A program made the translations under genes and the position numbers. This document shows, piece by piece, positions 2,838-55,104 of a DNA stretch of 64,000 bases (its first letter is position 1; the number at the start of each line of letters is the position of its first letter). The notes below the pieces were generated by a model. That model did not search any database. It was given only the letters and a program-made list of their open reading frames with translations, and was not told the origin of the DNA. The DNA is from Nemania diffusa (taxonomy: Eukaryota > Ascomycota > Sordariomycetes > Xylariales > Xylariaceae). Where the stretch lies: the NCBI GenBank assembly GCA_038501195.1, contig JBBPUQ010000009.1:806001-870000 (forward strand), read 5' to 3'.

Positions 2838-4574
2838 TTACCAACTGAAAACTTCCTCAACTATCTCCTGAGCGGTTTGCTCTCCCCGAGCGTTCCTAGT
2901 GTAATGAAGACGACCTCCTTTTGCATCGATCTTTAGCAGCGGCCGAGAGCTAAACAGCTCGAGTGCCGCAATATTATCTGTGCAAAGACCCGCAGCTCTC
3001 AGTTCTCTTTCCTCGATTTCAATGATCCTCTCGGCAGCATGTGCTGCAAGTAAACTATTCCAGAGGCCTTCTTGACGGGACACGGAACGAAGAATAGCAA
3101 TAGCTCGTCGACGGATAGTAAGGTCTCGACAGCTACTAGCCACCGCATACATTGGGATAATATAACCAGATTCTAAGCTGAAAGAGGTTATCTTTCCTTC
3201 GCAATTGTTCTCAGACAAAATGAAAAAGATAATTCTCTCACCAAGCAGTAAAGCTTCTTCCAATTGTGGCATGAAATCATCCCAGGTAGAAGATCCAACC
3301 TCGACTTCAAATGAAATCCAAGTGACAAGAACATTGAGCTGGAGCACGGCCGCGGCAAGCTCTTCCTTCAACGTGAAGCTCTCTCCCTTCGATCGCACGA
3401 GCTCTTGGACAGCATGCCAAAATTTCAACGTGAGATTTGCCAAATGGCTTCTAGGGTCTTTCATCAGGCTGTTAGGGAGTTGGACAGAGTCGTCTGATAA
3501 CTTGGCATCCAGACTGCCACTAAACAGACAAGCGCCATTTTCAAATGTGCTCTTAGCCTCATCGATACTAGAGAATTCAATCGGTGCATCACCATAAATC
3601 TGATTAGCATAAGAAGGAGAGGCCGCAATCAAGGGGCGCTGGTAATCCCCAATGATCTGTGGTAAGTTTATCAGCCATGATGTATAGCTATCTGAGATAG
3701 AGGGGGAAAGTCTTACGCTAGAAGCCTGTAAATCTAATAAAGCGAAGATCTTGGCATAAGCCTCCAACGAGGCGTACGAATTGATGCGGGTCATAGACCC
3801 AAAGTGTTGGTGACGGAGAGCTCCAGTGTCCCGATCATATACAGTCTCTCGTAACAGCTTCACGCCATTTTGAATATGGGTGATGGATAAGGCATGGTTT
3901 CCCTGTATGTTCTATAGAACTCAACAATGACTATTAGCGCGATGGCAAAAATATGGAGTGATGAACTGTACCTCAAAGGAAGCAAAGAGGATAGACAATA
4001 TAAGGTAAATATCAACGCTACGATGGCCCTTGCTAAGGGATGGATCTAGTAATCGTCTGATTGCAACGTTGTATTGCTCTAATGCAAAAATGCCCGCCGC
4101 ACCTCTATTTGCCGTCTGCTGCATGGCTAGCTCGTGCCTCGATCCTATGGCGACGATGGCATGACGTATAGCGGGTTCATGATATGCAGCTTGGAGCGCA
4201 ATCCGTTCCCAAAAGCTGGAGCCGAAAAAGCCAGCTAGTTGAGAGCACGTGCGTTGTACGAAGAACGAAAATGATCGCTGGGAACGCTGGCAAGCGTGGA
4301 TCTCGAAAGACGGGCCTGCTAGCACTGGCACGGGTGTGATGGGCGCGTTGACATGAGCGTAGCCGTCACAGTTACGGCCTGTTGATGTACATCGGAAGCA
4401 GGCTGGCAATCCCTCGTCACACTTCACTCGTCTTACTGACCAATGATTGCTAGGTTAGATGTGTACGTTGTATCAAGGATTATTATTTCATTACTTACTC
4501 TTACAAGTGAGACACCCTGATTGAGTCTTCGGCTGATACGCCCGTTGTCTCTTCCCTTTCTTAACTTTAGTCAT
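2838..4574 (-). CDS. Zn2Cys6 fungal transcription factor
   Basis: Three exons on the minus strand, 4574-4499, 4435-3972 and 3911-2838, give about 537 residues. The first intron interrupts the zinc cluster; joining the exons yields the complete Cys-X2-Cys-X6-Cys-X6-Cys-X2-Cys-X6-Cys pattern at residues 21, 24, 31, 38, 41 and 48, starting GCLTCKIRRVKCDEGLPAC. The second intron (60 bases) removes a short stretch before the QGNHAL...HIQNGVKLL segment, typical of the fungal transcription factor middle region. A basic N-terminus (KVKKGKRQR) precedes the cluster. Such proteins bind CGG-containing DNA in the nucleus and often control nearby metabolic genes. It is transcribed divergently from the serine hydrolase at 5235 and lies about 7 kb from the peptide cluster, so a role as pathway regulator is possible but unproven. 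The start is the ATG immediately before the basic region. Confidence 0.88.
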
Positions 4575-5234: not shown

Positions 5235-7203
5235 ATGCTCAATTCCACCTTCTTTGCCCTACTTGGCTTGTCTTCTTTGGGAACTGCATCATGCTCTGGG
5301 AATTGTACCTGGGACACCATCACACCTTCACAGGCTCTTACTTGGTGCTCTTGCTACAATGGCTTCTTTTGTGCGAAACTTGACGTGAGCCTACCTACTC
5401 CATAATCCGTCCTCATCATCATGCTAAATAAATTGTATAGGTACCTCTAGATTATCAAAACCCTACCCTTGGTCGAGCTTCTGTCCCTCTCATCAAACTA
5501 CCAGCCAATACTACGTCATCCGCAGGCCCTTATCAAGGAATGGTTCTGATCAATCCTGGAGGGCCAGGCGGTTCGGGTGTGGATGAAGTTCAGAACAACG
5601 GTGTCGCCTATTATCAAGTTAGTAGCCTTTTGTTGAGACTTTTTGCCCAGTAAAATTTAAATTTGCAGGCCTTTTTTTTTATTCCTGATTCAGACCCCCA
5701 GTGCTAGTGAATTGGTTATTCCCTTCGTTATATGATGCTAACTTTTTCAAAAGTCCCTAACTGGCGATAATTGGGATATTGTCGGATTCGAACCTCGAGG
5801 GATCTACCGTAGCGAGCCTAATATCAACTGCTCGTCCACCCCACAAACTGCTCAAAACGCATCGCTATCCTCTCGGTTTGTTCCAGATGTGACGGACGAC
5901 TTCTTCATTAATTATATTCAAGCTGGAGTACAACTGGGTGAACAGTGCCAAGAATCAGTCGGCGGAGAAATGGACGCTGGCCCTCATATGTCAACTACGA
6001 CAAATGCTAGGGATATGCTTACCATCGTTGACGCGTTTACGAAAACTGCAGATGGGAAAAACAGTGCGAAGCCAAGTCATCTTCTGAATTATTTCGGCTA
6101 CAGCTATGGCACATTCCTCGGACAAGTCTTCGCCTCAATGTTTCCCGACAGAGTCGGCAACATGGTTCTGGACGGTGTTTTGAGCCTCGACTTGGTCCTG
6201 GGAGAGAACTTGACTGATGTAACGACCCCGGCTGATGGCATCATCGCATCCTTTTTCATATATTGTTTCGAAGTTGGGCCATCCCAATGTTCATTCTATA
6301 CCGGCTCTTCAGCACTTGACATCTTCAATCGGTTCAACGAGTCGTTCGTCCAATTGGACGCCGAAAGGGCGAAAGCCGAGAATTGGGCAAATGCAACAGA
6401 TCTCGAGGCAGCATTGGTGACAATGAAAACCGCTCTGTACGACTCCGTCGCAGCGCCAGAGTCTGCATTCGGCATTTTATCTGAAGCTATGGTTACACTT
6501 GAACAAGCTATTGCTTTCCAACAGCTTGCGGTATGGACGGAGCAGATTGTGGCCGTCATCGGAGACCCTACCGCGGCCGGCGAGGCGAACCCGGAATTAC
6601 GACTCGGTACTCTATGTACGGACCAGAGTAATAAGTGGTATAATAAGACGCTAGAAGACTTGAGTCCTGCTATTGAGCATCTTAGGGAAGTAAGCATTGT
6701 CGGGGAGATCGTTGCTAAGTCAATGCTTGGGTGTCTCGGATGGTCTATCGAATCTACGGATGTGTTTTCTGGTCCATTTGGCGGCGATACAGCAACCCCT
6801 ATCCTATTCGTCGGTAACACCTATGACCCTATTTCACCCGTTACGAAGTGAGTAAACAATATCCTATCCTTTTCCGTCGAGTTCATGCTGATGTTATCAA
6901 AAGCGCACTCGCAGCTGCACCGAACTACAAGGATGCCCAAGTCGTCACCGTTGACGCCACAGGAGTGAGTGATATTCTTCTTCATAAGTCGTTTTCTAGC
7001 ATAGACTGATTAGTTTAAAGCACACGTCAAGGGTTACAAATAACTCTTGCCAGAAGGCAAAAGTGAACGCCTATTTTCAATATACCCAGTTACCAGGAAA
7101 TGATTCTTACTGCGCGCTTGAAACTGGTCCTTTTGGCATCACCCTAAACGGAACGCTGGAAGATAACATTTACCAGGCCGGTTTGTCGCAGCTAGTGCAG
7201 TAA
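5235..7203 (+). CDS. secreted TAP-like serine hydrolase (alpha/beta hydrolase, S33 type)
   Basis: Five exons, 5235-5384, 5441-5617, 5754-6847, 6904-6964 and 7021-7203, give about 554 residues with all phases matching. The N-terminus MLNSTFFALLGLSSLGTASC looks like a signal peptide. The oxyanion-loop segment NPGGPGGSG and then DNWDIVGFEPRG are typical of tripeptidyl aminopeptidase-like hydrolases. Catalytic residues visible: Ser at about 226 in GYSYG, Asp at about 467 in GNTYDPISPV, and His at about 495 in GHTS, the first codon of the last exon. The TAP-like C-terminal domain carries the Asp and His. Introns 2 and 5 follow TGCTAAC-like or AAAG acceptors. It probably cleaves peptides or esters outside the cell. 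It lies 5.7 kb from a peptide precursor, so peptide trimming in that pathway is possible; general nutrient hydrolysis is equally likely. Confidence 0.88.
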
Positions 7204-8051: not shown

Positions 8052-9595
8052 TCACTGCTCAGATGGAATTGTTTCCAAAAGGTGCCCTCGTTCCTCGGTA
8101 TGAACTTGTTGCTTAGCAGTTGTTGTATAGAACTGCTCTTTTCTGCGACTCAACTCGGGTACTGCAATCAAGAAAACGATAGCCTCAATAGCAGCGAGAG
8201 TCCCCCAGACCAGCTTGGCAGCTGCCTTTTCTTTCGCAAATAGAATACCACTATTAGACAATTAAAACTCGATCTCAACACACATTGGGTAATCTATACT
8301 TACTATCCGGTGTTAAAAATACCAAGGACAAGTAATAACCTTCCGTTCCATCGATGCAAAAGGGTTGGTGCTGTTCTTCTCTGCAACTTCAAAAAGTTCT
8401 GATGATGCCACCAGCCAAACCATATCTGTATACCTACAAGGACGACAATAACAGTTCCCAAGAAAGGGTGGCCTTTTAAGAGCGTCTCAAACTAAAATAA
8501 TAGATATGAGTAAAATGTAGTAAAAACTCGGTCACGTTCAGATATTTAGCTTACCGCGTTGTTTTTCACGATTGGCCATGCAATGAGGGCAACGCCACCA
8601 AATGTGCTCAAGCTGGCCATCAGTTGAAGAGCCACGTGAGCGCGGAACGCTTTAGTAAACCCGCTCTTGAGTAGTACGGCCCCAGTAGGGAAGAAAACCA
8701 TGAACGCTAGTCCAAGCAGAAGCCCATGGGCTCTGGCCGCAGTAAATCCTGGATCTACATCCGACTCTGAGCCTCCAGATGGAGATCCAAAGTCAGAAGC
8801 GCCGAAAGATCCCTTACTTCTATCCAATGTAGGCGGGACAGCTACTTCTCCTGGGGCGAGGATACCTGCGGTCATGTCAACCCAGAAAAGACCTATTGCT
8901 CACATCAGTGGATCTGCCTTTGAGAATCAAGTGCTAGAAGAAGGCATTACTGTAATGATCGTGCTGTTTGATTCGTGCGTCCAATGTTACTATCTCAAAC
9001 TTTTGATTTAAACCACGAGCCCATATGAATGGATGGCTCTTCTGCGAGGGATCGAAAGTGGCCCATTTGTCGCACGCGTAACAAACAAAGCTGTACTCCT
9101 GCCATACGTCTGTCTGAGAGTTAACTGAGAGTAGTTCAACGGTTGGTGTCTTATCCGGTGCCATCTGAGGCTGAAAATGCCCACTATTGAACGTTAGTGA
9201 TCAAGTTTAACTCTCAGATCTCAGTATAATGACACATACTCGGTTGTACGAACACTGACAACTACATCTGCATATGAGCTTAGTTAGAGATTCAGATTAA
9301 TGCTCAAGCTGGGTGTATGCCTACTTTTCTTCTGGTCGGTAATCGTGAGAAACATTAGAGCCCCAGCCATCTGCTCCCCAATTCCGAGAGCCATCCACCC
9401 TTTCGTGGCGCTCCCCTCAAACCCCAACGTCATAAAAAGATCTGTGCCACTGCTTGTTTCATTTTTGGCTGTGATCATGCCCAGACACAAGTTCACAAGT
9501 TCGTCCTTGTGGCAATATTGGATTGCGGCCGTAGCCCAAGAACAGAACAATATAACCCCAAAGAAGCCGCGTGACAAAAATTGAATCAGAGCCAT
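8052..9595 (-). CDS. DOMON domain plus cytochrome b561 membrane reductase
   Basis: Six exons on the minus strand, 9595-9325, 9267-9240, 9183-8951, 8892-8555, 8491-8304 and 8250-8052, give about 418 residues with consistent phases. Exon 2 is a 28 base microexon. A signal peptide (MALIQFLSRGFFGVILFCSW) precedes an extracellular DOMON (cellobiose dehydrogenase cytochrome-like) domain of about residues 25-185, ending in DGHFQPQ and HDHYSLFWVDMTAG. Membrane helices of a cytochrome b561 core follow. Four candidate haem-ligand His are seen at about 233 (ARAHGLL), 263 (FRAHVAL), 298 (KGHPFLG) and 336 (LLHRWNGRLLL). The family moves electrons across the plasma membrane, for example to ferric or cupric ions. 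Its promoter contains the TTCCGGAA palindrome also found by the peptide precursor. A supporting role for copper oxidases is inference. Confidence 0.85.
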
Positions 9596-11641: not shown

Positions 11642-12367
11642 CTAGGCTTTTAAGTCACTTCCTGTCTTAATTGGCTGTCTGCACCAACCATAGCCACCTC
11701 CAGAGGGAACCCGAGCGACGATCTCGCCTACGGTAGCCCAGTCCGTCGTCAGGAGTAAACTACTGCAGTGGGCTGTATGATGATATTCGCCCGCCCAGAT
11801 GTTGGTGGCAATCCTCCCTTCCATAGACTTGTGTAGGCGCTTCCACCAGAGCATGCAATGTCCAGTGTGAAACTCCTGAGTAGTCCATATGTCCTGGCCG
11901 GCCATCTCAGATAATTGCTCAAGTGTCTCAAGGTGCTGCGTGCCATTCTTATCGAGATAGAAAGGCCAAGGCCGCACACGCTTCGGTGAACGTAGCCATT
12001 CCTCGAATTCCCTTGCCGTAGACTGGTCTTCACAAGCCGCGGGCCACCAGGTGGCTGAGAGCAGGTCATAAGAGCACCCAAGGGCCCGAGCTTCTGCAGG
12101 TGTCTTGCCACACTGCGAGGTCTCGACGAAAGGCCCTTGAACTGCCGGCGGACCTCCGTTAGGATGCCCAGAGTCAGTGCTGGACAGGAGGCTTGAGGAC
12201 GAGCCGACGCCGAGTCCAATAATGAAGGTGATGGTTGCTGCAAGGCCAGCAAGAAGGGCACTGCGTAAATGTGACCTCGTTTGAGGTCGATGGTGAAGGT
12301 CAAACCCTAGCTGGTTCGCGTCATCTACGCTTTGGACTACTTTTTCATAGTCGGTAGAATACGACAT
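11642..12367 (-). CDS. UstYa-like HxxHC membrane protein (CGxxPAEARxxGC family), copy 1
   Basis: A single open frame of 241 residues with an ATG at 12367. A cytosolic N-terminus is followed by one membrane helix (about 35-57), then a lumenal domain with CGKTPAEARALGC (86-98), SYDLLSATWWPAAC, and two HxxHC motifs, HTGHC (167-171) and HTAHC (197-201). Two HxxHC motifs on a type II membrane protein are the hallmark of UstYa oxidases (DUF3328), where they are thought to bind copper, but the rest of this sequence differs from DUF3328. It belongs to the same family as the gene at 16805. I recognise the CG..AEAR..GC family as recurrent in fungi but know of no assigned function. It shares a divergent promoter with the peptide precursor. 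Probable role, by inference: oxidative cyclisation of the core peptide in the secretory pathway. Confidence 0.75.
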   Translation of the reverse strand: MSYSTDYEKVVQSVDDANQLGFDLHHRPQTRSHLRSALLAGLAATITFIIGLGVGSSSSLLSSTDSGHPNGGPPAVQGPFVETSQCGKTPAEARALGCSYDLLSATWWPAACEDQSTAREFEEWLRSPKRVRPWPFYLDKNGTQHLETLEQLSEMAGQDIWTTQEFHTGHCMLWWKRLHKSMEGRIATNIWAGEYHHTAHCSSLLLTTDWATVGEIVARVPSGGGYGWCRQPIKTGSDLKA

Positions 12368-12664
12368 TGTAATGGAGAATAATATACGGCGAATATGCAG
12401 AGTGGCTATTATATGGCTGAATGTAAGGCGTAGGTTGAATAATATGAGAAGAGTATGGCAATAATTTTAGAACGAGAATGTTGGATGAACAGAGATGAAG
12501 CGGTGCTTGGTGTATACAGTCCGTCGCTAGATTTAACTGTATACCAATGGGAAAGTGGGGTGCCAATGGATTAAATGGAAGACAAGACCCCTTGAGAGGA
12601 TTATGGCTGATAACATGCAACAGGAGTAGCGTGCGGATCCCTATTCTATCGGTACTATTTGTTA

Positions 12665-12692
12665 TTCCGGAAATCAGGATAAGTCGTTCCGG
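12665..12692. promoter_or_regulatory. TTCCGGAA / TTCCGG element in divergent promoter
   Basis: Between the HxxHC protein (start 12367, minus) and the precursor (start 12945, plus) lies a TTCCGGAA palindrome at 12665-12672 and a second TTCCGG at 12687-12692. Paired CGG/CCG triplets are typical Zn2Cys6 operator parts. This is the best candidate regulator site for the cluster; binding is not shown. Confidence 0.4.
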
Positions 12693-12784
12693 TGAGCCTG
12701 ATGACGGATCTTGCTATTAGAGCATGGGGTTTTGGCTAGTGCTGTATTTAGATAGCTGTAGTATTGATCACGTCTTCGAAGTAG

Positions 12785-12790
12785 TATAAA
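12785..12790 (+). promoter_or_regulatory. TATA box of the precursor gene
   Basis: TATAAA lies 155 bases before the precursor ATG, followed by a pyrimidine-rich leader. The position suits a strongly expressed small secreted protein. Confidence 0.45.
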
Positions 12791-12944
12791 ATATCATTCT
12801 CCCCCGAGACTTATGACTAGAAACATCGTACAGAGCATCCAACATCTTCACTATATGTCTTGTACTTTTTAACCCACTCTAAGTTGACTCATTAACTCTT
12901 TTACTTCAATTTTATCCACCGAGGTATCCAAATCGAAAGCCAAA

Positions 12945-13416
12945 ATGAAGACTTCATTTGCCTTGACTTTCTTGTCTCTTATGACAGCTGCTTTCGCTGC
13001 GCCAGTTGTTCACCAAGGTATGACTATTCAGATTTTCCTTTATTTTCACGAATATTAATATTGCTATAGCTTCAACAGAATTAGCAGCTCGCCAGTACCA
13101 GCTTGTTGTTAGCGTCCATGACATTGAAGAGCCAGCGCCAACCGAGAAGCGCGACATAATCAGCTCCCAGGCTCTCGCCGAGCGTCAATATCAACTGGTC
13201 GTTAGCGTTCATGATATCGAGGAGCCCGCACCTGAATCCAAGCGAGCGGTGGAAAGCTCATCTACTCTCGCCGAGCGCCAATACCAGCTCGTTGTTAGTG
13301 TTCATGATATTGAGGAACCCGCGCCAGAGTCAAAGGTGAAGCGAGCGCTAGAAGAGCGCCAGTATCAGCTGGTCGTCAGTGTCCACGATATTGAGGAGCC
13401 AGCTCCTACTGAGTAA
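12945..13416 (+). CDS. dikaritin-type RiPP precursor, four-repeat Kex2 peptide
   Basis: Two exons, 12945-13017 and 13070-13416, give 139 residues. Exon 1 encodes almost only a signal peptide (MKTSFALTFLSLMTAAFA, cut likely after residue 18). Exon 2 holds four exact copies of a 17-residue core, RQYQLVVSVHDIEEPAP, at residues 32-48, 63-79, 94-110 and 121-137. Lys-Arg Kex2 sites follow the first three copies (51-52, 82-83, 115-116); the last copy ends with Thr-Glu and the stop. Spacers are short and variable (LAA, LAE, LAE, LEE before the Arg). This is the architecture of ustiloxin/phomopsin-type (dikaritin) precursors, and the neighbours include a DUF3328 oxidase and two other HxxHC proteins. 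The core matches no peptide I know. The single Tyr per core is the usual site of ether crosslinks in this class. The product structure is unknown. Confidence 0.85.
13090..13407 (+). repeat. four in-frame core repeats of the precursor
   Basis: Core units lie at 13090-13140, 13183-13233, 13276-13326 and 13357-13407, each 51 bases. The protein is identical in all four, while every one of the 17 codons has at least one synonymous difference among the copies. The spacing is 93, 93 and 81 bases. The spacers between cores vary in residues and length, unlike the cores. Confidence 0.9.
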
Positions 13417-14818
13417 AGAAAATCAAATCATATGAGTTGGGAAGCAATAGTAGGGACTCATTATCTACATCAACCACTTGGCAAACATGGCGAAATATTG
13501 TAGATCATGTACTTAGGCTCGCCAGTGCGACATATACGATAGATAGTTTAGAGTTCAAGATGACCGTTACGGAACAGTCTATGATTGAATACATCCCATT
13601 TATTTATTCTTGAATTGCATAAATTAGGTTGCCGCTATATTTATTAGGAACTCCCTTGGATATAAATTTCGAGTCCTTTTTGCTGTCATGTCCCCTTTTT
13701 CTTATTCTGCTGTTGTCTGCTTGGACAGTTAGATTTACTAGCCTTCTATCTTTGTCCACTATACCAATTCTATTACAATTAATGCCTCAGAGCTAGATTA
13801 ATTAGAGCTTTAGCCTTTTTTTCTGCCGTCGACTTCCAAACAGAAGATAATGCAATACTATCGTTGTCGTTGTAATATTAGTCATGAAGTGTCATCCCCC
13901 GCATAGCCCAGCCCAGCCCCGCATATCATGCAGATGCAGCCCAGGGTTTGACATGATGTACCCACTCGCATGCGTCTATATTCCATGCATATTCTGTACC
14001 TAGGTATTGATAAGAGAACCTACATAGTACCTACCGCACATCTCTCCGACGCCATCCGGGGATTAAGAGCTAACAGCCAAGCATCGTATAATACCTATAC
14101 GTAGAAGTACGATGTGCTGTAGGATTCCGTTAGTGGGGTTCTTATTCGGGTAAAGATGCGAACCAGGCGTAGTGTTCTTTTTTTTGGCTCTCCGCAAGTA
14201 AAGAGCCGCCGAAGCCATGAACATGACACAAGTGAGATACCATATAGAAACTACACTACATTCAGGAAGTTCTTAGTTAGTCTGACTCCTTTAATGATGA
14301 CTGCAGAAGGATTACCTATCTTCGGATAATAAACATTAGGATGCTCTACCATATCAAACTAAAAGTACCGGGTAATTCAATCTACCTCTTAATTGGAAGA
14401 GACAACTTGACCGCTCCTCATCCGATTTGTCTAGCCTAATATTTAGTTTACGTAGGGGTACTTAGCTAACTACGCGTCCATTGTTACGCCTGTTTAGCCC
14501 CTGTTTATCTACATAAGCATTGGAGGAAAGGCGTTCTTGCGTAAGTAGGTACTTTTCCAAGAAGGATTGTCGGTAAACATTTTTGTGCAGTGCCCAGTAG
14601 GGACCAGGATTAATACCTCTAGGAGATATCAACAGACTAGGAGATTTTTTCTTCACCGCATTCTCTTCTTGGCTCGGCGGCGTGTCTTGTGATAGTCACT
14701 TTGGAATTTCTCACAAGACTGCTCAGCTGGTCGCCTTCTACTCACCCGAGTATCACCTTGATAACTTAACTCTACGCTCATGAACGCAGATCTAGAGATA
14801 GTCGCTTGATACACTATC
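13417..14818. other. intergenic in the RiPP cluster
   Basis: No gene was found. It holds the precursor 3' end, the UstYa promoter and one copy of a diverged 59 base repeat (13729-13787). Small frames on the minus strand near 14462-14838 show no family features. Confidence 0.5.
13729..13787 (+). repeat. diverged dispersed repeat, copy A
   Basis: This 59 base segment, beginning TTAGATTTACTAGC, matches 17900-17958 at 51 of 59 positions with no gap; seven of the eight differences are transitions. It may be a remnant of a RIP-mutated mobile element lying within the cluster. Confidence 0.6.
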
Positions 14819-15864
14819 ATGTCGTACCCTCTAGACAAGTCTTCTGATGAGGAGTTTCAAGATGAAGGATTATCCTCAGATGCGCGTTTGCTTCGCAAGA
14901 ACGATGTGGAAAACTATCCAGCAGCAAAAATCTGGAAAAAGAAATCCTGGATCTTACCTTTACTCTTTCATACCGCTATCATCGCAACATACACACTATT
15001 CTTCCTTTTCACCCTTTGGAACTTCAAATTCGACTCTAAATGTCGACTACCGGATAGCATTGAATGTGAGAATTTCCTCCCTTTTGAAAATACTGATAGC
15101 TAATTTTGTAGCATCCGCAACTTCATCAATAGAATACGGAACTCGTGTGTTTGATGAAATTGATGATCTCGATGACTACTTTGGAAAGCCGACACCCGAA
15201 TTGGACGCAAGATGGAGAGATCTCTTGAAATGTAAGCATGCCACTTATCATCCTCAATATTGCGATATTGAAATGCTCACTCATCAAAAGATCAATGGTT
15301 ACAGATTCCTGAGTCAGACATGAAAAGACTAGGCCGGCTGGAGGAAGGGATTAAGCTTCCAGATGACGGCTACTTCGCTACGTTAGCTGTGTTTCACGAT
15401 CTCCATTGCTTGGTAAGGGAAATTCTTTATGACATAATACATCGCCTGCTGCAATTTGCTGACAGACATTAGCGGCGCATCCACCACGTATTTCATAGAG
15501 ATCATTATTTCCCAAATATGACTGCAGAAGAGCGATTCCTAGACAGTCGCCATGCAGGTAAGCTCTTTAACAGCCCATAACTAGGTATAGCTAACACATG
15601 GAAGCACATTGTCTTGACAGCCTGCGCCAGAGCGTTCAGTGCGCCGGCGATGTCTCTTTATTGACTATGCGTTGGGGGACGCACACGCGGGAGCCTCTGG
15701 CTAATTTCACGGGTCGACATGAATGTGTCAACTGGGATCACATTCAGGACTGGGCTCACGATCATGTGTATGATGTCATGGCGCCCGGTGTTCTTGTTCA
15801 TCCTGTGTTAGGGCCATCGTACCCAAATGGAAAACCTGGGCTGGGAGTCGGCAGGGACTCCTAA
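14819..15864 (+). CDS. UstYa-type oxidase (DUF3328), peptide cyclase candidate
   Basis: Five exons, 14819-15065, 15112-15231, 15291-15412, 15473-15557 and 15605-15864, give about 277 residues with all phases matching. A cytosolic head is followed by one membrane helix (about 45-66: WILPLLFHTAIIATYTLFFL). The DUF3328 domain then shows EYGTRVFDE, FGKPTPELDARWRDLL, GYFATLAVFHDLHCLRRI with HDLHC at 158-162, and HAAHCLDSLRQSVQCAGD with HAAHC at 190-194; the last motif is split by intron 4. A C-terminal HECVNWDHIQDWA block completes the family pattern. UstYa proteins are copper-type oxidases that form ether and carbon links in dikaritin peptides. With the repeat precursor 1.4 kb upstream this is the clearest tailoring enzyme of the cluster. 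The gene looks intact. Confidence 0.87.
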
Positions 15865-16804
15865 TGTTAAAATTGTATAGCATACGAGAGTCACTAAGTG
15901 TATTATTGCTTAAATTAATATCATCGTCATTTATTTACTACCTACCTCATCCAACATTATGCAATAAAAGCAGTCTTAATCTTCAAGATAGTCATGTAGT
16001 AAAGACAGCCTTAACCTCATAACATACTTATTATAAAACCTAAAATTATACTATATTTACCTATTTGCCTTATAGCAAAGATTTGTACTGAAACTCATTA
16101 GTTTAAGCCAGGTTTGCCTACATATGTGACATCGGTATACGGAGCCAAGTAATTACTAGCTAGGATTAGGAACCTATACCCCTGTTCAAATCTGCCTCAA
16201 AAGGATTATTGCCGAGCACTCCCGGAAGTCTAGCATAAGCGCGGGCTTGCGGCACAGGGTACACGCTATCCATGTTGAGTAAGTAGCTTATACCAAAATC
16301 TCACCCTTGCTGCCTTATCAGTGCAGCGCCTAGCGAATTAGTGAAACATAGCAATACTTAGATCGCATAGCAAGACTATAGGATCCTTAAAGTCCACCAA
16401 TACGGCTTCAGAATCCCCTGAGATGATGCCTTAACGGCTAGGGAATAGTCTTGAGAAAATGGTTCTAGGCAAAACTATCAGATGATTAGTAAATCACCTT
16501 AGCTTGATGCAACTACTAGGATTGCAAATCAAAATGGCATGTTGTCAGGCTATTAGAGCTGTCCTATGATCCGGTGTTAAGTTAATGAGCTATATGGCAG
16601 TTTTAAACTGAAGCATTAGTTACGGTTTTCATGGTAGACCCATGGCAGATCCATGGCATTTCGGATAGCTATTTACATGGGCTCTAGCTAAACCGTATAC
16701 CTGTTGGCGATCACTCTCTTGCCTTATACGCTTCAAAAGCCAACGCGGATGCTATCTGCGTTTCTATCGTTATTCTTTGATCCCATTCTAAATTTCCAGT
16801 CACG
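15865..16804. other. intergenic
   Basis: About 940 bases, AT-leaning, with no recognisable gene, repeat or RNA. It holds the promoter of the following HxxHC gene. Confidence 0.5.
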
Positions 16805-17573
16805 ATGCACTTCTTTGCTAAAATTCGTGTTCCCGAAGTAAAATATCATAGCCTTCGTCTTTCGGAGGAGGATTCCCTTGCCGCAGATGATAAGTATCTT
16901 CTCCAGGAGCATCAATCACGGATGCGCTCGTATCTTTCACGCTGGCACCTCGCTATTATTCATATAGCTCTAGCAGCACTCGCCGTCACATCCATCACTA
17001 TATCAATATTGTATCTACGGCTGCTACACCAATATGCCCCTCGGCCACAACTTACATGCGGGACGTCAGTCGCAGAAGCACGGAAAGCTGGTTGCTCTTT
17101 TGACCGGCTGACCAAAGCTTGGCTTCCGGCCGAGTGTCCACGCTACTACGAAGATGAATACATTCAATTTCCTGCCACATTGAATATGGTCAACATGACG
17201 GGCTGGCATTATTGGGAAGACCGTACCACCGCGAAAGAAATCACCGACCAGGAAATGTCCTTGTTCGCTGAAACAAGACCGCTGGGCGATATGTCATGGG
17301 TGTCGACTAATAGAATGCATCTAGCACAGTACGGTTTCTTCATTTTTCTGAATTACCTCTTCACGAGCAGTTGCTAACTACATTTTGTTCAGTTGCGCGT
17401 TTGTCCTCATGAGACGTGCGGATATTGAGGAAGCTGGTGAAAGGATGGATGCTACTACCGAATTTATTCCGCATATGAAGCACTGCCTACAGATGTTACT
17501 TAATGCAGCCATGAAGGCCCCAGGCATTGATAAACCCCTGGCTGAAGGGCAGGTTGGATTTGGAGCTTGTTAG
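16805..17573 (+). CDS. UstYa-like HxxHC membrane protein (CGxxxAEARxxGC family), copy 2
   Basis: Two exons, 16805-17328 and 17393-17573, give 234 residues. One membrane helix (about 48-74) is followed by CGTSVAEARKAGC (85-97), SFDRLTKAWLPAEC, and two HxxHC motifs, HLAHC (172-176) and HMKHC (202-206). The first motif exists only after splicing: the intron (GTACGG donor, TGCTAAC branch point, TTCAG acceptor) splits the second His codon. The family is that of the gene at 11642, with the same order of features, but the two are clearly diverged. Probable role by inference: second oxidase or partner in core peptide modification. No other function is known to me for this family. Confidence 0.75.
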
Positions 17574-18309
17574 AGCTTGGGAGCTATGTACCTAAAACAC
17601 TACAACAGAGCAGTCTTAAACATAATGTTCTCGAGCATTGGGTATCATGACTAAGGATCGCGTTCAAAGTATGTTGGTCAACAGTAGAACATGTCGATTA
17701 GCAAATTACAATAGATCGAGTTGCTAAACATAAACAGACCTGAAATGTAAGCAGCTCTTACTTTGGTCTAATTAGCAATCAGAGTTCCCGTATAATACTA
17801 GTTCTACATTGGCGAAACCATCAAATTCAGCTGCGAGCCTAGTTTGTTATCTTGTCCAATTTCTCCTATTCTATTGTTATGGGTTTAGACAAGTTAAAAT
17901 TAGATTTACTAGCTTTCTATCTTCGTCTACTCTACCGGTTCTATTATAATTAATACCTATATACAACCAATCGCGAGTCAAGACACTCTGCGTTGGTAAC
18001 TTCATCACCTGTCACATCCCCTTGAGGAAAGAGAGAGGATTCACAGCATATAGTAGGGATCTGCAGTTAGATAGGTAGGGAGTTTGCGCACTAGGGCTCT
18101 GTCATCCTGAAGTTGCATCCCTACATCTGAGGTCTCGGTATCGTCAACAACAGGTATTGTTGCGTGCCTGAGTATATCAGGGGCTTTTAGTGACTATCCT
18201 TTTCCCACACAGCCTGGCCCTCAGAATTCTCCTGCTAAGGGAATAGCACTTGCTGCCTTGAGAAAATGGAAACTGGTGTCCTACAACTGATAGAATCTTT
18301 CCACTTGAG
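17574..18309. other. intergenic with repeat copy B
   Basis: No gene recognised. It contains copy B of the 59 base repeat. The lost N-terminal part of the MFS transporter would be expected at the right end, but nothing of it can be read. Confidence 0.5.
17900..17958 (+). repeat. diverged dispersed repeat, copy B
   Basis: Partner of 13729-13787, same orientation, 51 of 59 positions equal. The two copies bracket the UstYa gene and the second HxxHC gene. Confidence 0.6.
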
Positions 18310-19017
18310 CTTGCAGGCACATGGCACATGGTACTGTTATTTTGCTGGTCGTCCCTCGCCATCGCCAGCGATACTGTCACCATCTACTCTCTTCCCCTTC
18401 TCTATCAATTCTCCTTCAACGATTCTCTACTGCCTGCCGCCCTTTGGACGCTACCCTTCATCGCAGCCCTTCTCGTCAGTGGAGGCCCACTTAGTCCTCT
18501 CTTTCCAAAATTTTCCATCTACAATGTTTGGTTCCTGGGGGCCGGTGTTTTAATGTTAGTGAGCGGCGGGTTGATGTCCTCGATCGATTACGGTACCTCT
18601 CGTGCAGCGATAACCGGGTATGCCGTTATCCAAGGAGTGAGTTGCGGGCCTATCGTCTAATTACCATTCACAGTTGGTCAAGCTAAAGTCCCTCGGTCTA
18701 AATTAGGCCAAGTGACGGCATTCCTCACTTGTTCTTAGATGGCTGGCCTGGTGTTGGCTCTAGGAATCGCGACTGCAGTGTTCCTTAACCGGGCGACCGA
18801 GGAGATTCTCCCTGACTACCCACGATCGCTAATCCAGGCTGCGACAAGCCGGGTTGGTTCGTCGGTTTTTAACAGTTTGGACCCCAACACTCGCCGCGAA
18901 GTCTCTGGGATTGTAGCTCGAAATGTTAGCAAGGTGTTTTATCTCAATCTTGCAGGCGCTGCTCTAGGGTTCTTCACAGCGACCTTCATGGAATGGGAAA
19001 GGCCAGCGCTAGAGTGA
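18310..19017 (+). pseudogene. MFS exporter remnant (DHA2-type C-terminal part)
   Basis: Two readable pieces remain. The first (about 18316-18633) has helices of the late MFS core: YSLPLLYQFSFNDSLLPAAL, LPFIAALLVSGGPLSPLF, FLGAGVLMLVSGGLMSSIDY and GYAVIQG. The second (about 18739-19017) reads LVLALGIATAVFLNRA, a linker and a last helix NVSKVFYLNLAGAALGFFTA ending in MEWERPALE and a stop. A GTGAGT donor and TTAG acceptor could join them. The first 8-9 helices are absent, and the usual QTPxxAVQ...FFxxLG segment between the pieces is missing. A working DHA2 transporter has about 500-560 residues; fewer than 220 remain. It was probably the exporter of the peptide cluster. A short functional protein cannot be excluded. 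Confidence 0.6.
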
Positions 19018-19941: not shown

Positions 19942-20538
19942 ATGTCTCATATCCTTCAGAATGGAGAAGCCATCAACCTCAGCAAGGGCCTCACAAATCT
20001 CACCGTTGGTGTAGGGTGGGACCCCATCGAGCAGGCGCCCTCCACCGAACCGCTCGACCTGGATGTATACGCTATTCTCATGGCAGACAAGGGCTCGGAG
20101 AACGAGATGGTTAACTATGCCGCAAAGCAAAGCAAGTGTGGATCTATTCGTCTTTCCAAGGATAACATTACCGGCGAGGGAGATGGTGACGATGAACAAC
20201 TCTGGTTTACCCTGAACACAGTGGCGGAAAATATAAAAGAGGTGGATATCTGGATCGTGATTTACAAAGCCAAATCTCGTGGCCAAAGCTTCAGTAAGGT
20301 CAAGGAAGCACACTGTCGGTTGTTCCAGGGAATCGATGGCAAAGAAGAGGAAAACGGACACCTTGCGAGCTTCGACATATCTGGTGGAGACAGCAATGTT
20401 CAGAGCATACATGTTGCAACCCTGTTCCGCCAGGGAGAAAGCTGGAGTTTCCGCCGTGTAGAGGAGGGATACGAATTGGATCATGAAGGAGTACCAGAGC
20501 TATACAAGCTACCGTCAGCAGAGAAGGTCACAAAGTGA
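19942..20538 (+). CDS. TerD-family (tellurium/stress) protein
   Basis: An intronless frame of 198 residues. The whole length fits a single TerD domain: GEAINLSKGLTNLTVGVGWD near the N-terminus, LDLDVYAILM, the calcium-site segment DNITGEGDGDDEQLWFTL, an EVDIWIVIYKAKSRGQSFSKV segment like the bacterial IHxAxxRxQNFGxV, FDISGGDSNVQSIHVATLFRQ and WSFRRVEEGYELD. In bacteria TerD binds calcium and takes part in tellurite, phage and oxidative stress responses. The start ATG at 19942 is the first in the frame that fits the domain; upstream codons of the open frame show no similarity. TerD is mainly bacterial, so an old transfer into fungi is likely. A link to the peptide cluster next door is unproven. 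Confidence 0.85.
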   Translation: MSHILQNGEAINLSKGLTNLTVGVGWDPIEQAPSTEPLDLDVYAILMADKGSENEMVNYAAKQSKCGSIRLSKDNITGEGDGDDEQLWFTLNTVAENIKEVDIWIVIYKAKSRGQSFSKVKEAHCRLFQGIDGKEEENGHLASFDISGGDSNVQSIHVATLFRQGESWSFRRVEEGYELDHEGVPELYKLPSAEKVTK

Positions 20539-47422: not shown

Positions 47423-50400
47423 GGGTGGTTTGCTCCGGTCTCACGCTACGCAGACACACCTGTGTGATGGTACCAGGTAAGTAAACAGCCAGGAGCGAAG
47501 GCTAGCTGGGCCGTCGGATGGAGGATGGCCACATTCCCCAGACTCTCATACGTAGGCATCTACTCTGAACCGGGAAACGGTATATTGGCCTAGCTGCACG
47601 ATCAAATGATCGCGACGATTTCGTTGGCGAGGACAGCGGTGCCCATTCGCGGGGAAAGGGGACGTTAATATATATAGATATATACGCATATATATATACA
47701 TATATATCGAAGCAGATCCAATCCAAGTGATCGAGGTGCAGTGGGTGAACCGTCCCGTCCCTACCCGCCCCAAGTGCGCACACTACTGCGTAGATAGGTA
47801 CGTACGGCCCACTCTTCTTGCTATACCTATCTCTATCTCTGTTGATTCTTCTATTCCCCTTTTGGGATATGGTAGTTCGGGCAAACCAGCCCGAGGGCCC
47901 GGCCGGCGAAGTTTGTCGTAACAAATCCATCTAAAACCTTTAGACAACCTGGGAGCTTTTAGACGACGTGCCTACCTAGTACATAGGTAGTGTCTCTCGT
48001 TGCACGTGCCGGAACTTCGTCATGCGCACTGCTGAATAGGGACTGGAATTACAGAGTAATTAGCAACACCTGTTGCCCAAGTGTGTAGAGCAAGAGAGGG
48101 ACAGGCCAAGCATTGCTCCTATTATCGGAAGTCGGTCAGCTCGACAGTGGGCTGTCTTCGAGCAGGATGACAGAGCAGAGCTTCGATACCTATAATAATC
48201 CGGGTTGCGTTCGCATACAACTGTGCTGATTAGGTATGCAACGGCTTGCATCCACAGCAACAAGAACTTGAAAGTCATGCCACACTTTATGCTTCATGTA
48301 GCATGATGTACATATGGTTGGTACTTATGTGATGAGCGAATTGCCACTCGGAAAATCTTGTACCTACCAATCTCGGTCGCATCTTGAGCTGCAGGTGCTC
48401 GTTAGTGTCTCGAATAGTCATGGAGAAATGGCTGGCTGGGTGTCCCAGCTAAGTTGAGACACTCTCGTTGACGAAGTCTCGCTTCTGAATACTCTAGTAT
48501 TCCAATCGTTTGGTAGAGCATTGACGAGCGAGATTACCTGATTGAACAAGACGCAATAGTCTCGCGTTGCGTGGGAAGAAGCAGGTCAATCCCATTGTTA
48601 ATGAGACTTACATACCTAGGTCGGTATTTATTAGATAAATGTCGATGGAGTTCAGCTCGAATTGTGGATACAGTGCACATATCCGCCGTGGTGTTGATTG
48701 AGACTGTATGTTGTTACTTGGTCACAATGTACAATATTTGGGTGAGGAATCAGTCCTCGGCAGTCACAGCGTGTTACCCGCCTGCCAAATCTTGTCAACA
48801 GGTGGTTAGGTAGTAGCCATGTCTTAGCGTACAGGCGTCTCACCAGAGGCTGTGCCCCTCGATCGGTACCTGAAAGCTTGCCTCGCTATTCCACCTAGGT
48901 AGATACAGTCAGAGTTAATCAATAGCAACTCTTTGCACTAGGTATCGAACCTTACAACGCCCTCGCAAATTTAATCATGAACATAATTTAAAGTATGTAT
49001 GATGAGAAACCTTATAGTTGGTAAAGTAGGTATCCAACAGCGGTAGTATTCATGTTGAACCCCTTACCCACTCACTAATAATCTAGATAGGTAGGTACCT
49101 ACCTAGGCTAGATAGTGTTGGTAATTCTTGAGACAGTCGAATCGATGCAACTAAGTTCTGCGGGTAGACCGACGGAAGCCTCTTGTTTCGTATATCTGTG
49201 ACGGACTTCCCATCCATACAGAAGAAAGATTATTCAACATGACTACATGTAGCCCCAAGTTATGCCCTATTTACCTGGTAAGCTTCAGCCACCCGGCGCA
49301 TTGAGGTAGCCAAAGAGACAAACCGAGAAACGAAAAGAGATGTGACTGCACAGAACTGTCTCGGTCAGATCTGGGACCTACAGTAATTAGTGTCTCTGTA
49401 TCCCCGTGACGAGAGTGTGCCCGGATTGGGTACCAGCAGCCGACGACCAAGATGCCCAGAGTCCCAATCAGGAGGTCTGCGTCCCATCTGTCGCTGCATG
49501 GTCAGCAGCGTCCGCAGCAGCTGCCATCATCTATTTGCTGCGCTGACTGAGCGGGCACATCAAGGGCACGTAAAACTTGTCAGTCAGCTATGTACGTAAA
49601 CTACTCGGTAGGTGGGAAGGAAACCAAAGATAGCTGACTATCTTTCTTTTTGCTTTTTTTTCCTCTCTCGTGCTTTGGTGGTGGTGCATGGGTATACGCA
49701 AATCGCCAACATTTAAACTCTTAACTCTCAGGCATACTCAGGCATAGGTATGTCGTGGCATTGCCTGCCTACGCATACTCTCCAGTCAAGGCAAAGATCC
49801 AGTTGAAGGGGGGAACCTTGTTCCTTTTATAGTATGAGTTCCTCCGTACAGACACCTACAGCACGTTTACGACGCCAAGTGTATCTTTCCTGCGTACATG
49901 TAGGTACATACAATTATACCTATACCGCCGAGTCTCGTGCTAAATTTGGACCTGTACAGTTTGATACCCTGCCGTACATCACAGTAGCAGTAGTGGGCTT
50001 GTCCCTGATCACTTGATCATGGTAGGGAGGTACAGTACGGTGCCCTGCTAGCAGCTCTACACTGTACCATCCTGCTGCAAGTATGGAATACGAATGCATG
50101 AGGAATACAAAACGCAGATTGGCTTCTCTCTTTCTCTTCGAACATATAAATATAGCTAGCTGTATCCCCTTGCGTTGCGCCCAGCCATTGTTGTTTACGA
50201 TAAATATCTATGTTAGCCTTCTTTCTGTATTGTTTTCCTTGTCTTTCTGAAACTTACCCTGCCTGCCTAACCTACCTACATATGTACCTAGGTAAGTTAT
50301 TTAGCGTACCTTGTTTGCCGGTACAGTATTTACTCAACAGACAGGCCCATTTATTACAGTAGGCCTCGCAGCTACTGCGTAAGTGAGGTATGTATTCTAT

Positions 50401-50928
50401 GTAGGTATCCATTGGTACTTATTTCGTGTCTAGACTCTACAGCATCTACATGTACCTGTGCGCAATACGTATGCTCTTTTACGACGAAGTAGGTATACGA
50501 TCTTGAAATAAGGAAGTATATGTACTTGATTCGTATTGTTTAGGTGTTTCGGTATGTAGGTAATGTGTAGGCAATTACGGACGAGGCCGGACACTCACCG
50601 AATCTTTATGGGCTCCCGCTTCACTCAGAAAATAATCTACCTAGGTGGATTGCATGTGATGAGCTGGCTTGCCTGGCCTCCGCTACTTGCGCGCAAATAC
50701 TAATCATTAATCTACTGCGTATCTACCTAGGTAGATACATGCCTACGTATTCCATCCATACTAATTGTAAAGGCAAACTTACATGTCACGCCTTTAAAAG
50801 TAGGTATTATCAGGCTCCTAGGCATGCCAGATGGGCAGTGCTATATTTAATAGATTACTACGGTTGCCCACAGGGCTTACTGTCTTATAATTCAATTTAG
50901 GTAACTACGCCGACACCACTGGGCCCAC
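47423..50928. other. gene-poor DNA next to the AT block
   Basis: No gene recognised. An (AT)n-rich microsatellite lies at about 47667-47710. The CCTAGG-centred palindrome is dense here, with copies at about 48598, 48892, 49096, 50287, 50639, 50725 and 50818. Composition is ordinary until the abrupt edge at about 50928. Confidence 0.5.
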
Positions 50929-53900
50929 TTTTTTTTTCTACCTTTTTTTTTAAATCAAATTTGCAACCTAATTTTTTACAATCATTTTTTTAATTTAGTA
51001 ATAATTTATTTAAACTTTTATACAAATTAACATATATATAGTTGATTTAATTATATTTTAAAATAGCTATATAGATTAAGCGTAGTTTTTTTAAATTAAA
51101 TTTATTATATATAATTTATAAGCGTGCTAGTTTTATGCAGCTTGTATATTTTATTTTTTTATCAATTTTATTTTATTTGCTATAATTATTATAGTTGCTA
51201 TGTAATTTTATACAAATAAATTTTATTTTTATATTTTTAATAGTATTAAAAACAACTGCAGATGTTTTTAAATATTTTAGTTTGTTTTAAATTGCATAAG
51301 CAGTTTTTAATTTGTTAGTAAGTGTATTTGCTAGCTACAACTATATTTTACGCTAACAAGTATTGTTTTTATATTTTTAGCAGTATCAATTTTAACTGCA
51401 AACATTTTTAGCTATTTTAGCTAACTTTATATTGTATAAGTATATTTTAACTTGCTAATAAATATATTAAGTAGCAGCGACAATATTTTATATTAACAAA
51501 TATTGTTTTTATATTTTTAGCAGCATTAACTTTAACAGCTAACTTTTTAAAAAACTTAAAACTTTTTTATACTGTATAAGCTTATTTTAATTTGCTAATA
51601 AATATATTTTATAGTAGCTATAGTATATTATATTAATAAATATTGTTTTGATATTTTTAAAAATATTATTTTTAATTGCTAACAGTTTTGAAAATTTAAA
51701 AACGTTTTAAATAATATAAGTATAATCTAATTAAACAGTATATATATTTTTATTAAAGCTAAAAAATTTAGTTAGCGCATTTTTTAATTAAAACTTTTAA
51801 AAATAAATCTGCATTATTAATAAAAATATAAATTTATATAAATATATTATTTATATTGCAACTATAGCAGCACTATTATATAATACTTTGATTGCTTTGC
51901 TAATATGTTATATAATAAAACATTTAAAAAATTAAAACATAGTTAATTAAAGCGAAAATAATATTATTAAACAATATGTTTTATTTTTTAATTTTTAATA
52001 TATTGTTTTTTTTTTGCTATATAGAATTGCAGTAATTTTAATTATATTGTATAAAATATATAAACAGTTTATTAAAATCAAATTTGATTAAATATACAAT
52101 TAATAATGCAGCATTATTAAAGCTTATAAAAGTACAAAAATATATAAAGCAACATTGAAGTATATAATTAATTTAAATATTAGCTAATTAATACAGCTTT
52201 TTATTTATTAATTTGTTAGTATTTAAGTTACTTGCTTTTGCTTTTTACGCTTTTTAACTTTTTTATATTTTGCAAAAATTTTTTTTTATGTACTTTCGTT
52301 GCGCTTTATTCTGCTTATTTTTTTTTTATTATTTATATATTGTTAATTTTTTGCTTTAGTTATTATTATGCTTTTTTTTTCAATTAATATTATTTGATAT
52401 AACCAGCGATATTTACTAGTTGTTTTTAACTATTTTAAAAACTGCAACACTTTTATAATTAAAACTATTTAAATTACTAAAGTGCTTTTTTAGTTTTTTT
52501 ATAACAAAGTTTACTACATTTTAAATAAATCTAAAATATAATTTTTTAATATATGTTATATTATACTGAGCTAATATAATTTGTTATAAATTATTTAGCG
52601 CTTAATTAACTTTGTTATAATTTATAAAAACAGAAAATTAGAAAATATAAAATAAAAGATCAATTGGGTTAAACGTGCAACTGCTATTGCACTGTATATA
52701 TTCGACAGAACTAAAACAGAAGTAATATGTTATATATATTAGCAAAAAAATTATAATAACTTAATAAAGCGATATATTGTTATAAATAGCACAAGTTTTA
52801 AAAGCGCTTGTATAAACTGCTATTATTTTAAATAAAACAAAAAATGTTTGCTTTATGTTAGTAAGTTTTAACTTTAGTAAACTAAACATAAATAAACATT
52901 TATTAATTAGTATAAAATTAAAAAATATAGAAAAAAAAAAAAGGTCAAAGTTTTTAGGAATTTTTGCTAGGTTTATAGCAGAAATAGCAGAAATAGCAAG
53001 TTTGCAAAAGTTAAAAGTTTAGCTTAGTTAAATTAAAAAAAAAATCAAAGTACAAGCTAAAGCTATATATATTATAAAAAAGCGACATAAATGTATTAAT
53101 AACAAAAAAAAAAATAAATAAGCAATAAAAAAATAAATAATATATTAAAGCTTTAAACTGTTTATAATTAAGTTATTATATTTAATAACTAAAAAGTTTA
53201 ATAATATAAAATTAAATAAATTAAAAAAATATAAAGCTTTATATATATAAATACTACAAAGTATACCCGACTTTTTATACAATTAGACTCAAACTATAAA
53301 ATATAGTATTGTTTTAATTTAATCAAACTTGTTTTAGCTATATTGTTTTTGTATCTTTTTAACTATTACACTTTATATTTATTTGCTATTATTATTTACT
53401 GTTTTTTTTTATTTATTGTTTGTACCTGTTACTTTATACAATATGTAATAAATGCTGCTTTATAACAAACCGTTTATATTTAATAATGCGTAAGCAAAAT
53501 TTACGCTAAAAAGTCTGCGTATATAATTAATATTTGCTTTTAATGAAAATTATTACATCTTTATCTCTTTCGTTGCAACAACTTTAACAAGCTTTATTAT
53601 TTACTGTTATATTTTTGGTTTAACTTTTATTTGTTTTGTTTTTATTAATTAATTTTTTACTGTTATTTAATATATTGTTATTTGTTTTTTTTTTTGTTTT
53701 GCTTGTACTATTTTAACGCTTTAGTTTATTATTGTTTTTTTTATTAGTTTTGCAAAATGTATAGATTGCAAAAAATCAAAACATATATAAAACTACTTTA
53801 AATCGAAATTTTATAATCAAAAAAGTTTTGTTTATATTTTAGTTAATTATAGCAGCGTATATTTGCAATAGTGTTAACTATATCAATTGTATCAATAAAA

Positions 53901-54900: not shown

Positions 54901-55104
54901 ATAATATATTTTTTTATTTTTAAATTATTTTAACTGTATTTTATATTTAATTTATAAATTTTGTAAAATTAAACTTGTAAATATTAAATATATATTATTA
55001 TATATTAATTACTTTAGTAATAATTTTAATAAAACATTTTTATTGTTTTTTTAAAAATAAATTTACTAAAATTTTATTAAAAAATTTTAAAATAATATTA
55101 AATA

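Follow-up and report, generated by a model that had tools for sequence, protein, structure and literature searches.

Ustiloxin and phomopsin gene clusters contain a tyrosinase, and the phomopsin core is Y-V-I-P-I-D. In both peptide families the ring is closed from the N-terminal tyrosine (Tyr) to an internal isoleucine (Ile) (PMC6514808, PMC9233826), which in the ustiloxin core Y-A-I-G stands two residues past the Tyr (PMC6514808). DUF3328 (UstYa) is described as the class-defining enzyme of dikaritins (PMC12048977). The asperipin-2a cluster of Aspergillus flavus (aprA/aprY/aprT/aprR) combines a repeat precursor bearing a Tyr core (FYYTGY) with one UstYa-type oxidase; its four genes include a transporter gene and no tyrosinase (PMC6514808). 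Biochemical work on CctR, a DUF3328 enzyme of cyclochlorotine biosynthesis, showed HxxHC(x)nHxxHC to form a binuclear copper centre, which consumes O2 and depends on a supply of electrons; the authors treat DUF3328 as a family of copper enzymes and postulate an accessory electron donor (PMC12435403). Here we report a locus of Nemania diffusa YAFEF818 (Xylariales), a fungus living in roots and wood, the strain being an endophyte from roots of Artemisia argyi (PMC11320954). By analogy with the above systems, we consider it likely that the locus is a dikaritin-type cluster for a ribosomally synthesised and post-translationally modified peptide (RiPP). Kex2 would cut the peptide and copper enzymes would oxidise it, probably with formation of a cross-link at Tyr. 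The stretch analysed, 64,000 nucleotides long and referred to as the window, is C9:806001-870000 of the genome searched (G000; 55,621,613 bases, 16 contigs). The central features are listed below; HxA and HxB are our names for the 16805 and 11642 genes, both encoding HxxHC...HxxHC membrane proteins.

12945..13416, + strand: precursor gene, 139 amino acids (aa); exons 12945-13017 and 13070-13416; signal-like N-terminus, four 17-residue units, three Lys-Arg sites
13090..13140, + strand: core unit 1, RQYQLVVSVHDIEEPAP
13183..13233, + strand: core unit 2, residues as in unit 1
13276..13326, + strand: core unit 3, residues as in unit 1
13357..13407, + strand: core unit 4, residues as in unit 1
14819..15864, + strand: UstYa/DUF3328 oxidase, 277 aa; exons 14819-15065, 15112-15231, 15291-15412, 15473-15557 and 15605-15864
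16805..17573, + strand: HxA, 234 aa; exons 16805-17328 and 17393-17573 (intron 17329-17392); motifs HLAHC and HMKHC
11642..12367, - strand: HxB, 241 aa, intronless; motifs HTGHC and HTAHC; divergently oriented to the precursor gene, with 577 bp between them

Like the asperipin-2a cluster, the locus has a repeat precursor with a Tyr-bearing core and one UstYa-type oxidase, and the window is likewise without a tyrosinase match. It differs in the two divergent HxxHC proteins that accompany the single UstYa, in a degenerate transporter-like gene and in its 17-residue unit. With the ustiloxin B and phomopsin clusters it shares the Kex2-repeat precursor, the UstYa-type oxidase and a Tyr followed two residues on by an aliphatic one (Y-Q-L-V in the window); unlike them, it shows no tyrosinase or S41 peptidase match and only one oxidase above the Pfam cut-off. 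The membrane helix followed by HxxHC...HxxHC is common to CctR and the window enzymes; the copper centre was shown for CctR, whose substrate is a non-ribosomal peptide.

The first-pass annotation had assigned the locus to the dikaritin type, and this assignment is supported. A UstYa/DUF3328 oxidase gene with two HxxHC motifs is present in the cluster, as are a precursor with a signal-like start, repeated units and Kex2 (Lys-Arg) sites and an aromatic cross-link donor (one Tyr in each of the four units); these are the defining features that can be tested in sequence. Other species have kept the set of enzymes too, as described below. In the survey by Umemura, Tyr occurs in 65.6% of DUF3328-associated repeats; a DUF3328 gene neighbours 1758 of the 7878 repeat precursors from 1345 strains, and for 2560 of the 7878 no homologue was found (PMC7329392). 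With such counts, a new unit beside a UstYa gene is to be expected: the core at this locus is new, but the kind of cluster is already known, with many such clusters in fungi.

The precursor reading frame starts with the ATG at 12945, is interrupted by an intron (13018-13069) and ends with the stop codon at 13414-13416. Its N-terminus, MKTSFALTFLSLMTAAFA, was judged signal-like by eye and by hydropathy (best Kyte-Doolittle 19-residue window 1.82, residues 4-22), in agreement with the signal peptide proposed at first pass. The four identical units and three Lys-Arg sites proposed there were also found and mapped, the units with the same residues in all four copies and the sites (13147-13152, 13240-13245 and 13339-13344) in the variable spacers of the spliced precursor that separate them. 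At the codon level the copies are far from identical. All 17 codons vary among the four units, every difference being synonymous; with some 11 synonymous sites available, each of the six pairs of copies differs by 8 to 13 synonymous changes and by none that alters a residue. At least 19 changes have occurred, all synonymous, against about 23% expected for random changes. Since the synonymous divergence is near saturation, the copies must be old, and, judging from the codons, the entire 17-residue unit is under protein-level selection rather than merely a short core within it.

A whole-genome search with the precursor returned only its own two exons. In 5.39 million open papers three of the four core strings do not occur, and QYQLVV occurs once, in a work on the synthesis of peptides. 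The 3' flank of the precursor gene (13437-13787) aligns with that of HxA (17577-17958; blastn expectation value (E) 6.5e-18, 116 columns, 74% identity). The gapped alignment scores 168, whereas none of 50 shuffles exceeded 63, and identity rises to 86% over the best-matching 59 bases; genome-wide, a 76-base probe from this flank matches only these two flanks at E<=0.001. The homology indicates that local duplication shaped the cluster; the flanks may reflect either such a duplication or a shared 3' element.

The proposed sequence of events is as follows. The precursor, with its signal-like start, would enter the secretory pathway, and cleavage by Kex2 behind each of the three Lys-Arg sites would release four fragments, every one containing a single unit. 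The three membrane-anchored HxxHC...HxxHC enzymes (UstYa, HxA and HxB), each with a presumed binuclear copper centre, would then use O2 to oxidise the unit. Considering the ring between the N-terminal Tyr and the internal Ile in ustiloxins and phomopsins, and Tyr-Gln-Leu in the unit, a Tyr-derived cross-link is expected; the likeliest product would carry it between the single Tyr and the aliphatic residue two positions on. HxA and HxB would carry out further oxidation, and a peptidase would trim the flanks. The cyclic peptide derived from YQLVVSVHD that was proposed at first pass is an inference. For RQYQLVVSVHDIEEPAP the computed monoisotopic [M+H]+ is 1980.0185 (linear), 1978.0028 (minus 2H) or 1975.9872 (minus 4H); the minus 2H values for QYQLVVSVHDIEEPAP and YQLVVSVHD are 1821.9017 and 1057.5313, respectively.

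The first-pass annotation counted one DUF3328/UstYa oxidase and two other HxxHC membrane proteins within 6 kb, and all three were recovered with intact motifs. The spliced UstYa model carries HDLHC and HAAHC and matches PF11807 at E 2.7e-51 (175 bits with a cut-off of 25), so that by its profile score it is a true UstYa/DUF3328 member; no relative with a solved structure was found for it by sequence (best E 0.46). Splice sites were chosen by eye so that the motifs stay intact; the public models P0001 (for HxA) and P0007 and P0020 (for UstYa) have identical residues across the chosen sites. Both HxA and HxB consist of an N-terminal hydrophobic stretch (most hydrophobic 19-residue windows at residues 51-69 and 37-55, respectively) followed by HxxHC(x)nHxxHC, and both carry the pattern CGxxxxEARxxGCxxDxLxxxWxPxxC. 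The two families align with each other in hhalign at a probability of 98.3% (E 1.6e-14), which suggests that HxA and HxB are probably related. The six motif residues are invariant in all 16 HxA-family rows, comprising 15 of the 20 hits and a paralogue from C7 (P0004, the partial P0006 and P0008, and the fused P0007 and P0020 were omitted), and in all ten HxB-family rows (the window protein and all nine hits). In the wider 20-row HxA alignment the first two His are nearly invariant, because the gene model P0004 skips the first motif. The similarity to UstYa itself is weak. In the HxA family 15 of the 16 members match PF11807 at E<=10, the best at 2.4e-5 (P0001, the first member, scores 18.0 bits against the cut-off of 25), and in the HxB family one of the ten (E 0.091); hhalign of HxA and HxB to 11 UstYa sequences gives probabilities of 11.6% and 18.9% with E 0.0026 and 0.0012. 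The predicted structure models have a pLDDT (predicted local distance difference test) of 70.5 for the HxA family and 37.4 for the HxB family, and searches by fold gave no informative match. In view of such profile scores the two are not filed as UstYa members; they resemble UstYa and probably work alike.

Cross-species searches with the precursor, HxA and HxB used a protein database clustered at 90% identity and gave 20 relatives of HxA and nine of HxB. Relatives of both share contigs, as judged by identical contig size, in four fungi:

Xylariaceae sp. AK1471: HxA and HxB on contigs sized 3,712,617
Nemania sp. FL0916: HxA and HxB on contigs sized 153,124
Lasiodiplodia mahajangana (as named): HxA and HxB on contigs sized 17,246; genes g3269 and g3272, with two gene numbers between them
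Stachybotrys elegans: HxA and HxB on contigs sized 2,728,842

In two gene models (P0007 from Nemania sp. FL0031 and P0020 from S. elegans) UstYa and HxA are fused, and the window UstYa is 81% and 67% identical, respectively, to their N-terminal parts; these models are best read as adjacent genes merged by annotation. The shared contigs and the fused models together mean that the enzymes form a conserved set, one that extends to Stachybotrys in another order, the Hypocreales. Identities to the S. elegans proteins are 63-75%; these values and the patchy distribution would fit a transfer. In the remaining organisms only HxA or only HxB was found, an absence that says little because of the clustering of the database. 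The organism names of two entries, P0023 and P0022, deserve attention: an HxB 99% identical to that of the window over 218 residues is filed as Hypoxylon argillaceum, and one 85% identical as Lasiodiplodia mahajangana, a name from another class. These public names may be wrong.

Several results weigh against a dikaritin-type cluster. Among 5.8 billion database proteins, from which 3177 candidates were scored, none matched the precursor at E<=1; this negative covers annotated proteins, including those of the fungi with conserved enzymes, while the DNA of other species was not checked. Small genes are frequently left out of annotation. The same result, with the core strings being essentially without literature match (QYQLVV excepted), agrees with the first-pass statement that the core is undescribed, and the peptide appears so within the proteins and open literature searched. 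The window contains no tyrosinase (26 PF00264 exon matches genome-wide at E<=0.001) and no S41 peptidase (three PF03572 matches genome-wide at E<=0.001, a count that could miss divergent members). Neither HxA nor HxB of the window has a Pfam match at E 0.01 or reaches the PF11807 cut-off. The transporter-like gene at 18328-19017 is degenerate, and export is possibly lost or performed elsewhere. Finally, no promoter motif shared beyond chance was found among the cluster genes. The candidate AGCATCC was enriched versus shuffled sequence upstream of seven genes, yet two of the promoter pairs overlap and two of the starts are approximate; with five independent regions it was the only 7-mer in four of the five, and 1117 of 2000 random sets of real chunks had at least one such 7-mer. 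The candidate was therefore rejected.

Other explanations were considered. The oxidases could modify the peptide without closing a ring (by hydroxylation, halogenation or similar), the product being a linear RiPP. CctR hydroxylates and its family is implicated in halogenation and isomerisation (PMC12435403), and such chemistry is conceivable for HxA and HxB, which lie outside the PF11807 cut-off. On the other hand, none of the four units has lost its single Tyr, the residue from which the cross-links of ustiloxins, phomopsins and asperipin-2a are made (PMC6514808, PMC9233826, PMC7329392). Since all 17 residues are kept, the Tyr weakens this explanation only a little; we regard it as unlikely. 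The cluster might also be decaying and yield nothing in this strain, as the broken transporter-like gene would suggest; however, the reading frames of the precursor, UstYa, HxA and HxB are uninterrupted, their motifs are intact and the units differ only synonymously, so that we hold this to be very unlikely.

The least probable, in our opinion, is that Kex2 releases an unmodified secreted peptide (a signal, surface or pheromone-like one) and the oxidases serve another substrate. Precursors of this general kind are common without the enzyme, since 6120 of the 7878 in the Umemura 2020 survey have no DUF3328 gene nearby (PMC7329392). Moreover, the unit is long and constrained throughout, and the protein database search revealed no precursor relative beside the conserved enzymes. 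Against it, oxidase genes lie on both sides of the precursor within 6 kb, the enzymes are linked in other fungi, and pheromone-type precursors are almost all without DUF3328 neighbours (PMC7329392).

The N. diffusa genome has several clusters of this type, the window locus among them. PF11807 exon matches number 52 genome-wide and were grouped by hand into 29 loci. Sixteen UstYa loci were read over at least 7 kb (the window, L033, L034+L035, L037-L042 and L046-L052); precursors were found there by a repeated-peptide script and each hit was then viewed for a signal-like start, splicing being modelled only in the window. Seven of the 16 have repeat precursors (the window and those listed below) and eight have none; L033 offers a weak candidate, seen by eye only, and one further precursor was found at L007, read over 3.5 kb only.

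L035: TQIYTIDTKAAEVD, six copies
L039: SPAPPIVDGGLD, two copies
L048, 2660-3106 (C5), - strand: eight IWLW units, with Trp and no Tyr in the repeat; adjoins UstYa genes
L049, 5834-6178 (C6, near 2681.3 kb), + strand: EAD[AS]DYIFIDLPDKR, four copies; clean Kex2 precursor adjoining a UstYa gene
L050: DTDGPV units, two with GYYDHGSDVEP
L052: a 38-residue unit

Y-I-F-I-D of L049 is similar to Y-V-I-P-I-D of phomopsin. Control DNA for the script comprised L036, L043, L044, L045 and the remainder of the window. The rows flagged in it were arrays of low complexity at 55-56 kb, repeats near 21.5-22.9 kb that were either of low complexity or a single 6-residue one, and one case in L045; viewed by eye, none of them combines a signal-like start with dibasic sites. 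The script rows dropped at UstYa loci were echoes of accepted hits in other frames and one row in L042.

Five genes of the HxA/HxB family were found in the genome, four of them inside UstYa loci. The C4 member (L036), the only one of the five lacking a RiPP-like context, has no UstYa match nearby; the surrounding 24 kb (L036, L044 and L045) gave a single script hit, of low complexity. A second dikaritin-like cluster at C9:2498000-2516000 (L034 and L035) has UstYa matches at two places, an HxA/HxB-family gene and, as in the ustiloxin type, a tyrosinase match (C9:2506228); its six units contain the motif Y-T-I-D and only one dibasic site is present. The C7 locus (C7:210225-214342, in L033) resembles that of the window in its UstYa exons, in an HxA paralogue (53% identical) and in a small open reading frame (ORF) in which a signal-like start and, imperfectly repeated, two FDYxNNI units were seen by eye. 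In contrast to the window precursor, this ORF lacks Lys-Arg sites and was not flagged by the script; the C7 locus also has no close HxB relative, the HxB query matching the HxA paralogue there at 31%.

The neighbouring genes of the window locus are as follows.

2838..4454, - strand: Zn(2)Cys(6) transcription factor, 5' end approximate; membership uncertain
5235..6854, + strand: alpha/beta hydrolase, extent approximate; start signal-like, C-terminus resembling TAP weakly and below the cut-off; membership uncertain
8052..9595, - strand: DOMON/CDH-cyt plus cytochrome b561 protein, 418 aa, six exons (modelled by script), intact; membership uncertain
18328..19017, + strand: degenerate remnant resembling the major facilitator superfamily (MFS); two short same-frame ORFs separated by two in-frame stop codons

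The three genes on the left would be plausible in a RiPP cluster (the hydrolase is possibly a trimming peptidase, and the Zn(2)Cys(6) factor possibly the regulator); their membership is uncertain, and beyond them lies a nicotinate phosphoribosyltransferase gene. On the right, the MFS remnant of the first-pass annotation stood as far as its degeneration is concerned. Its MFS identity did not find the same support: neither ORF has a Pfam match at E 0.01, and what looks like MFS does so by eye and by weak matches of the first ORF (26-31% identity) at six other places in the genome. To the right of the remnant is a TerD-domain gene (19942-20538; PF02342, E 3.4e-37), a family best known in bacterial tellurite resistance. 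Farther on, within 50001-64000, the GC (guanine plus cytosine) content falls from 0.47 to 0.285, 0.175 and 0.093 and then to 0.011-0.024 over 56-64 kb, up to the end of the window; this AT-rich block could, for example, be a regional centromere, or else consist of repeats that have undergone heavy mutation.

The b561 gene lies about 2 kb from HxB and matches PF16010 (E 7.3e-16) and PF03188 (24.8 bits with a cut-off of 23). It is tempting to propose it as the electron donor for the oxidases, which is speculative. The fuller scheme, in which the three HxxHC oxidases act in turn on one core while this protein passes electrons across the membrane and keeps the copper as Cu(I), seems to us quite unlikely. 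An enrichment of DOMON/b561 genes at UstYa loci was considered and rejected: the C1, C2 and C5 paralogues and three PF03188 matches lie away from all UstYa matches. The sole PF16010 match near UstYa is a CDH-cyt gene (C7:187526-188136), 22 kb from the C7 locus with UstYa and the HxA paralogue. The genome searches with PF16010 and PF03188 miss the window gene itself at threshold, so this census misses divergent members. As no general link between DOMON/b561 and UstYa is seen, cluster membership of the gene stays speculative; no co-mention of DUF3328 and cytochrome b561 was found in the open literature.

For the genus Nemania we found no RiPP report in the open literature (the co-mention of "Nemania" and "RiPP" concerns Hypoxylaceae and Xylaria in the accessible text), and no co-mention of "Xylariales" and "DUF3328". 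The locus adds to the fungal RiPPs a clean cluster that is conserved in part and carries a new core. More unusual in it are the two divergent oxidases and, possibly, an electron donor. Proteins of the HxA/HxB type would go unnoticed in searches filtered by the PF11807 cut-off. If the b561 scheme is true, the gene at 8052-9595 would supply the donor postulated by the CctR authors; should it prove to be the donor, the question of how DUF3328 copper enzymes are powered would become testable.

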